Below, in pieces: positions 48,300 through 49,415 of a stretch of 64,000 bases of DNA. The position numbers and the translations under genes were made by a program. Under the pieces are notes generated by a model. That model saw only the letters and a list, made by a program, of their open reading frames with translations. It did not search any database and was not told the DNA's origin. How positions within the stretch are numbered: position 1 is the first letter of the stretch; every line of letters begins with the position of its first letter. The DNA lies in contig UYJD01000010.1 in the NCBI GenBank assembly GCA_900618795.1, forward strand, positions 1,028,068 to 1,092,067. The letters run 5' to 3'. Origin of the DNA: Cyanodermella asteris (Eukaryota > Ascomycota > Lecanoromycetes > Ostropales > Stictidaceae).

Positions 48300-49415
48300 C
48301 TAGCCAATGACCAATTTTGTCTCCTCGACGAAATCGTAGGCAGGGACTTCCAAATTGAGGGGAGCTGGCCCGCGACTTGAACTCTGTTAGCATCCTTGAG
48401 CTATGTGGACGTATATGAACTTACCGAATGCGGCCGGAGATGTCTAGAAGAGGTCAGCGCAAATCTTTCATCAACCAAGATTGGACGTACCGTAATGGGA
48501 TCCATGGCAAGGACAGAACCATCCGCCGTAGTCACCAGCCTCGCCGATTGGAACACAACCAAGATGGGTGCAGACACCTGTAATAATTAGCAAGAAGTAG
48601 CGTCTCTTGATCTTTTCTGTTTTTACCACTGTGAAAGTGTTAGCATATGCTTCGTCACAGTAGCAACGAGGAATCGTACAGCATGACCAGCCATTCGGGC
48701 TGCTTCACTCTATCACTGTCGGCCTGAGGATCTCGTAGAGAATCCACTGGCACAGCTTCCGCCTCCTTGATCTCCTCTGGGGTTCGGTGCCTGGCTTGTG
48801 TCAACAATATCTCCGTCAGCCAACACGGCAAACACTGACCTGATGAAGACGGGCTTGCCACGCCTGTTTTACGGTCAGCTTCCATTTCACATAATACAAA
48901 AAGTCCTCAGGCGTTCTCGGACTAGGAAAAGGGAGGCTCGCCATTTCAGGATCACGTTTTTGCCTTGAGGTATAGTTGAGAGGTCCACTTCGATCTTGGC
49001 TTGTGCTAGAACGTCTGCAGATGCGCTCATGTTCACGAGGAAGTCTTAAGGGTTTCCAAATTAGTTATTGTTCCATAGCCTGATGCTCTTGCGTGGAGGA
49101 CGCCAACCTTGGACTGTGTTAGCTGTTGTTCCATATTCTGATGCTCTTGCGTGGAGGGTGCTAACCTTGGACTGTTGCCTTCGCGCCAGCCGCCGAGAGC
49201 GCACCCATTGTTCCGACCATAAAATACTGGAAGACCTTGTTATTTGTAGAGCTGCCTTTGGAGAAGTATTTGCCGAAATTTGGGACCTGCTTCTGTTCAA
49301 AACTGGTGGAGGCGTCGCGGGTTTGTTGGAGGGCGGCCGACGCCACGGGAACCGGGAGCTTCGTGCGGGTGCATTGTCGTAGGAGCACGCGAGAGGTGGT
49401 AGCGAGTGGCGACAT
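48300..49415 (-). CDS. RIP1: Rieske iron-sulphur subunit of the cytochrome bc1 complex
   Basis: Passes electrons from ubiquinol to cytochrome c1 at the inner mitochondrial membrane. The 223-aa precursor is rebuilt from eight exons: 49166-49415, 48942-49044, 48840-48863, 48680-48790, 48627-48628 (2 nt), 48491-48577, 48425-48443 and 48300-48375; they sum to 224 codons with no internal stop. It has a basic mitochondrial presequence, one membrane helix with [16 protein letters not shown], and cluster ligands in CTHLGC (Cys166, His168) and CPCHGSHY (Cys185, His188), with Cys171 and Cys187 for the disulphide. The end is VEETKLVIG. Without the 2-nt exon the frame is lost just before GVCTHLGC. Intron 2 needs a GC donor (ATG/GCGAGC). 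A tandem copy of the first donor lies in intron 1. The gene stands between two paralogous small genes. Confidence 0.93.
49068..49175. repeat. Tandem 50-bp duplication spanning the Rieske exon 1 donor
   Basis: Copies at 49068-49117 and 49126-49175 differ at about five positions; period 58 bp. The right copy contains the last bases of exon 1 and its donor (CCAAG/GTTAGC on the minus strand); the left copy carries a second potential donor (CCAAG/GTTGGC) inside intron 1. Confidence 0.92.

Follow-up and report, generated by a model that had tools for sequence, protein, structure and literature searches.

In the genome of the ascomycete Cyanodermella asteris, the gene for the Rieske iron-sulphur subunit of the mitochondrial bc1 complex very probably contains a constitutive exon of only two nucleotides, TG, which would be flanked by two ordinary U2-type introns. 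The anatomy of this exon, the dependence of the reading frame on it, the splice signals around it, and its uniqueness among the enumerated solutions are observed directly. Furthermore, a gene for NAC-beta in the same genome likely contains an exon of one nucleotide.

The Rieske gene and its exon-intron structure

The Rieske gene lies on the minus strand at positions 49415-48300 of the window, i.e., the whole stretch of 64,000 nucleotides that was analyzed, and its model comprises eight exons and seven introns, with a coding sequence of 672 nt that is in frame from ATG to TAG and encodes 223 amino acids. Sequence matches identify the product as the bc1 Rieske subunit: the spliced protein matches solved Rieske subunits in the PDB (best match 8ab6, E 2.5e-93) and is assigned to UCR_TM and Rieske in Pfam. 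The gene is single copy, all five matches in the genome (E up to 1; 28.5 Mb, 25 contigs) being its own exons, and this argues for function. A pseudogene or a redundant copy was considered and rejected, because the gene is single copy and the joints checked in homologs are native. Elsewhere in the window, which belongs to contig C9 of this genome, a WSS1-like protein is approximately 54-64% identical to named relatives, most of them from lichen-forming fungi (Lecanoromycetes), and up to 66% identical to some further rows; this placement is loose, with no close relative among the matches listed. Thirteen of the best 120 of 8000 Rieske homologs are named "hsp70 nucleotide exchange factor fes1"; in Neurospora, fes-1 is the name of the Rieske gene itself, and the name on these proteins is for that reason probably a mislabel propagated through public annotation.

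Exon 1 (49166-49415), placed by the reading of the spliced model and the PDB match, begins with ATG at 49415 and is followed by intron 1 (49045-49165; 121 nt), which carries a 58-bp tandem duplication. The duplication (window positions 49061-49175; copies 87-88% identical) covers the end of exon 1 and much of intron 1 and makes a second AG...GT around TCCAAG, and intron 1 could alternatively comprise a pair of introns enclosing the 6-nt exon TCCAAG (49113-49108), both versions being in frame; ATVQDFL is read in 76 of the best 120 of 8000 homologs by a crude pattern that left the other 44 unparsed. Exon 2 (48942-49044) is followed by intron 2 (48864-48941; 78 nt) of the GC-AG type. Its weak GC donor, GCGAGC, scores below all 98 donors of the reference set described below, yet the joint KWRGKP, present in 120/120 homologs (best 120 of 8000), requires this intron. 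Exon 3 (48840-48863; 24 nt), intron 3 (48791-48839; 49 nt), and exon 4 (48680-48790) precede the microexon and its two introns, and downstream of these are exon 6 (48491-48577), which by homolog comparison encodes VCTHLGC ... CPCHGSHY, intron 6 (48444-48490; 47 nt), exon 7 (48425-48443; 19 nt), intron 7 (48376-48424; 49 nt), and exon 8 (48300-48375), which terminates in TAG. In intron 7 (48424-48376), a CAG directly against the branch site CTAAC is bypassed for the acceptor AAG on its 3' side, the CAG presumably being too close to the branch site for use. The seven introns of the gene compare with an average of 0.98-1.45 introns per gene, by setting, in the output of our gene finder for 264 kb of the same contig.

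On the minus strand, exon 4 ends with WLVM and CT, the first two bases of a leucine codon (...GTCATGCT at 48680). It is followed by intron 4 (48629-48679; 51 nt; GTACGA...TGCTAAC...CACAG), by exon 5, which consists of the two bases TG (48627-48628) and is placed by enumeration and by the gene finder, and by intron 5 (48578-48626; 49 nt; GTAAAA...TGCTAAT...TTACAG), after which the sequence resumes with GTGTCTGCACC; the order is thus CT, 51-nt intron, TG, 49-nt intron, GTGTC. TG supplies the third base of the leucine codon and the first base of a glycine codon, and lies between an AG and a GT (CACAG/TG/GTAAAA); coordinates and letters are as given in the original prediction. The predicted mRNA junction reads CTTGGTGTC with the TG exon and CTGTGTC if TG is skipped. 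Removal of the 102 nt as a single intron shifts the frame, as had been claimed, with a stop at codon 178 and the loss of both cluster motifs, and this reading was rejected on account of the lost frame. Retention of either intron 4 or intron 5 also leads to a stop.

Enumeration of splice solutions and competing readings

Splice solutions between exon 4 and exon 6 were enumerated for a single GT/GC-AG intron and for a pair of them, each no shorter than 30 nt. The native cluster block is produced by no solution with one intron and by exactly one solution with two introns, namely that with the TG exon. The original assertion that the block is read only with TG calls for two provisos: with arbitrary intron ends, at least two single excisions of 100 nt (GT-AC and TA-CA) yield the exact native block, and 28 weak single GT/GC-AG introns leave the frame open and VCTHLGC intact while deleting or inserting neighboring residues. 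Site and intron scores were ranked against a reference set of 98 introns, which our own unvalidated gene finder had called in 264 kb of this genome, so that the percentiles given here are rough.

The GT-AC excision (48679-48580) would join exon 4 to AGGTGTC, giving CTA GGT GTC and the same protein with no microexon (predicted junction CTAGGTGTC), and it is one of the at least two single excisions with any ends, the other being TA-CA, that reproduce the native block exactly. It is nevertheless very unlikely, as its AC end scores -3.6 bits compared with 6.6 bits for the AG two bases further on, its total of 9.0 bits falls below all 98 reference introns, its sites do not look U12-like, and it gives no account of the complete set of branch site, acceptor, and donor inside it. 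The two models differ at the third base of the leucine codon, which lies in CTTGG with the TG exon and in CTAGG with the GT-AC intron. The sites of introns 4 and 5 look U2-type when scored against the 98 reference introns. A genome search for U12 snRNA gave no match, and the control of that search was silent as well. U2 snRNA has three matches above the Rfam cut-off, on C24, C13, and C12 (L007-L009), two of them at 145 and 138 bits and the third, weaker, at 92 bits.

A single in-frame intron might instead alter the protein beside the cluster block, the best example being a 139-nt intron at 48716-48578 that deletes 13 residues. The 28 GT/GC-AG candidates mentioned above belong here, and the donor at 48716 was used in three gene-finder settings, though alongside the TG exon. 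All 28 are, however, at or below the 2nd percentile of the 98 reference introns, with 14.9 bits for the best, and they hit a block in which WL[VI]M-x-G is kept by 120/120 homologs (best 120 of 8000), which makes an altered protein highly improbable. The glycine made at the joint, before V/I-CTHLGC, is likewise found in 120/120 of these best 120 of 8000 homologs.

A sequencing or assembly error could in principle conceal a true genome with a normal single in-frame intron. We regard this as highly implausible: the sequence is native on either side as far as the joint, two missing bases (NG) would be needed exactly there, and the extra splice signals would be left unexplained. The combination AG-NG-GT with signals at least as strong as those of the Rieske site, a motif and thresholds derived from that site itself, arose in none of 20,000 dinucleotide-shuffled versions of the 102-nt interior and was found nowhere else among 528,000 positions (264 kb, both strands).

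The gene finder works from codon usage and splice signals, takes no protein sequence into account, and allows exons of any length. Both introns flanking TG were outside its splice training sets, as their donors do not occur in the donor lists. The finder placed TG in an initial trial and in 6 of the 12 settings, three of these six moving the upstream donor from 48679 to 48716; in the remaining 6 of 12 settings the stretch with TG fell outside any gene, and the 102-nt intron was chosen in none of the 12. Several settings were wrong elsewhere in the Rieske gene. The starting splice matrices were rough, a biased decoy of reversed sequence giving equal numbers of sites at most thresholds; the intron candidates from the coding models were too few or unspecific, and of the rounds of self-training two ran into false introns and one was over-strict.

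Splice signals and predicted removal of the two introns

Introns 4 and 5 each carry their own donor, branch site, and acceptor, i.e., two full sets within 102 nt. Their lengths were described in the original prediction as normal for a fungus, with a branch site about 10 nt before the acceptor, and both statements agree with the reference introns (median 56 nt, central 95% 43-184 nt) and with the 11 nt in intron 4 and 9 nt in intron 5 that follow the branch A. Intron 4 totals 19.1 bits (35th percentile of 98) and intron 5 totals 16.4 bits (9th percentile), the latter combining a weak donor (12th percentile; +5 is A, not G) with a strong acceptor of 6.6 bits (96th percentile), compared with 4.6 bits for the acceptor of intron 4.

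The donor of intron 4 paired with the acceptor of intron 5, which would skip TG, scores 19.2 bits, on a par with intron 4 alone. Skipping of the TG exon to some degree is likely because this pair is as strong as intron 4, and the weak donor of intron 5, together with an acceptor stronger than that of intron 4, also makes it plausible. The skipped transcript would plausibly be a substrate for nonsense-mediated decay, since its stop at codon 178 has two junctions downstream, located 44 and 63 nt from the first base of that codon. This position of the stop and the strength of the skipping pair would also suit a regulated microexon, whose skipped form would be made in quantity and sent to decay, tuning the level of the Rieske protein; such regulation is compatible with constitutive use of TG, as an addition to it. 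We consider it unlikely, as 102 nt is long for this genome, in which 9 of the 98 reference introns reach 100 nt, and no feature specific to regulation was found, although none was specially sought.

In filamentous ascomycetes, splice sites are described as pairing by intron definition (PMC5639578). Short fungal introns would accordingly be recognized as units, each excised on its own signals, and a tiny exon would be tolerated because intron definition needs only that each intron be complete, with no room required for exon-spanning complexes. Only two bases separate the AG of intron 4 from the GT of intron 5, and simultaneous engagement of the two introns is very probably impossible; their removal would thus be sequential, with either intron going first and the same mRNA as the result. 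From the genome sequence, we infer that both introns are actually spliced in this manner and that TG is used constitutively. Inclusion of TG would have to predominate, because skipping leads to a frameshift and an early stop in a single-copy respiratory gene.

The original prediction compared the pair to fungal twin introns and supposed that the first removal creates a new donor context, and neither idea was borne out. In a nested twin intron (stwintron), a splice site of one intron is interrupted by the second intron, and the Rieske pair resembles such an arrangement as two adjacent ascomycete introns removed in sequence. An enumeration of nested GT/GC-AG parses gave none that produces the protein, and both donors, branch sites, and acceptors are intact in the pre-mRNA, with no element interrupted, which renders a stwintron scarcely credible. 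The donor of intron 5 scores 3.67 bits before and 3.56 bits after removal of intron 4, so that a new donor context gives no help. Pezizomycotina stwintrons, as described in PMC5639578, share with the Rieske pair neighboring short U2 introns, presumably sequential removal, and intron definition; in the Rieske pair, by contrast, no splice element is split by the neighboring intron, and each intron is complete before splicing.

A search of the whole genome for a repeat origin of the pair, with a 281-bp query and E up to 0.001, found only the query itself, simple repeats and very common words being left out by this search. Introns 4 and 5 are also unlike each other, with an interior score of 4.0 compared with a null of 6.7 +/- 4.2. 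An introner or repeated intron family was rejected on these two grounds, as there are no near-identical genomic copies and no likeness within the pair. The Rieske joint is intact in 101/101 NCBI-sourced and 19/19 other homologs (best 120 of 8000) and thus bears no footprint of mis-annotation, for which reason the TG exon looks restricted to its lineage. It may have originated when a second intron was gained two bases from an old one; alternatively, a cryptic exon may have made up for bases lost at a junction, the route proposed for CYP621A in PMC12940212.

Ultra-small exons in other genes and in the same genome

Ultra-small exons are already known, and the Rieske TG exon would add an example of 2 nt. 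The original prediction that an exon of this size is near the limit for spliceosomes is right, but the case is not unique: exons of 1 nt have been published (PMC4674806; PMC12940212), and the same genome has a strong candidate of 1 nt in NAC-beta. A close counterpart is the 1-nt exon of CYP621A in Fusarium, which the abstract of PMC12940212 claims as the first in a fungal gene. As presented there, both cases concern an ascomycete and an ultra-small exon within a conserved motif, flanked by GT-AG introns on both sides and breaking the frame when skipped. They differ in exon length (1 nt vs 2 nt), in the type of gene (a rarely expressed P450 vs a single-copy respiratory gene), and in the evidence, CYP621A being backed by 20 orthologs and RNA reads whereas the Rieske exon is predicted from the genome sequence. 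In plants, a 1-nt exon is described for Arabidopsis APC11 (PMC4674806), and 1-nt exons for plant APC11 and VPS55 (PMC8831610). These are likewise ultra-small exons of conserved genes that are absent from annotations; unlike the Rieske exon, they belong to plants, are conserved among land plants, and lie in longer intervening sequence (422 nt surround the APC11 exon). The precedents of 1 nt are reported to rest on cDNA or reads (PMC4674806; PMC12940212; PMC8831610). PMC12940212 also cites exons of 2-5 bp from Arabidopsis, Drosophila, and humans, which fall into the same size class as TG. The Xlr2 microexon of Trichoderma virens is also a functional microexon in a filamentous fungus, but its inclusion is described as glucose-regulated (PMC11121469), unlike the constitutive model for TG. 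In the literature searched, no paper joining Rieske with micro-exon, intron, and fungi was found. If the TG exon is real, the spliceosome must define introns whose acceptor and donor are two bases apart in every productive transcript, and this gene would allow intron definition, and the proximity at which two spliceosomes can operate, to be tested cleanly.

The candidate 1-nt exon of NAC-beta consists of G (L036, G000:C8:125462-125481, minus strand) at the joint RIG/G/KGTPRRK, with ATAGGTGGC as the predicted mRNA junction. The gene, which encodes a ribosome chaperone, is of the BTF3/Egd1 type (PDB BTF3, E 1.2e-47; Pfam NAC), and both of its genome matches are exons of the gene itself. The G exon is flanked by introns of 49 nt (72nd percentile) and 67 nt (50th percentile), is the only GT/GC-AG solution with one or two introns in the enumeration, and was chosen in 4 of 4 gene-finder settings; from this sequence evidence, a 1-nt exon in NAC-beta is likely. 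The block RIGGKGT is also present in solved mammalian BTF3 chains.

Among the best 120 of 3211 NAC-beta homologs, the joint is altered in 50 of 70 NCBI-sourced rows and in 0 of 50 others (Fisher p 1.5e-17, with relatedness ignored). Between VR and GTPRR, the 50 altered rows comprise 39 insertions, 9 deletions, and 1 change of equal length, the remaining row having a different start; the altered forms are RIGTGKGT, RIGKGT, and similar. The 50 rows from other sources are on contigs of approximately 0.6-2.3 kb where a length is shown, and are perhaps transcripts. As a control, an ordinary intron joint of NAC-beta conforms to its pattern in 67/70 NCBI rows and 49/50 others (best 120 of 3211), and two of the three NCBI misfits are substitutions away from the joint. 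The contrast between altered NCBI rows and intact others indirectly suggests a conserved and often mis-annotated 1-nt exon, the simplest reading being that most of these genomes carry it and that gene predictors imposed a wrong join there. No paper linking NAC with a microexon was found in the literature searched. If confirmed, NAC-beta would be a widely conserved fungal example of a 1-nt exon, and it may matter more widely than the Rieske gene, as a warning to annotation pipelines and as a source of ready natural replicates (50/70 altered). Exons of 1-2 nt are probably a standing and conserved feature of filamentous ascomycetes, with the 1-nt exon of NAC-beta shared across several Pezizomycotina classes, which we assigned from row names, and mis-joined in most of the NCBI models listed, and with the Rieske TG exon as an addition in one lineage. 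In that event, there would be no practical lower limit of exon size for the fungal spliceosome, and a whole class of exons would be missed by automated annotation.

The genome was also searched for further exons of 1-2 nt, with reversed patterns as controls; for 1-nt exons the pattern was branch site-CAG-N-GTRAGT over the whole genome. These patterns would miss the Rieske TG site itself, the donor of which is GTAAAA. For 2-nt exons, the strict pattern gave 6 matches vs 18 reversed and the relaxed pattern 18 vs 56; for 1-nt exons, the strict pattern gave 1 match, which is NAC-beta, vs 11 reversed and the relaxed pattern 13 vs 28. There is thus no genome-wide excess of such motifs, and counts below the reversed controls indicate that this genome has few exons of 1-2 nt. 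Inspection of 12 of the 18 relaxed 2-nt matches found none convincing, and one call of 2 nt (L033) appeared at the most lenient setting alone. All 13 relaxed 1-nt matches were run through the gene finder, and one, NAC-beta, was robust. Weaker candidates of 1 nt are L038 and L042, each called at one setting, and L047 (G000:C19:229000-229022, minus strand), which was called at two of four settings.
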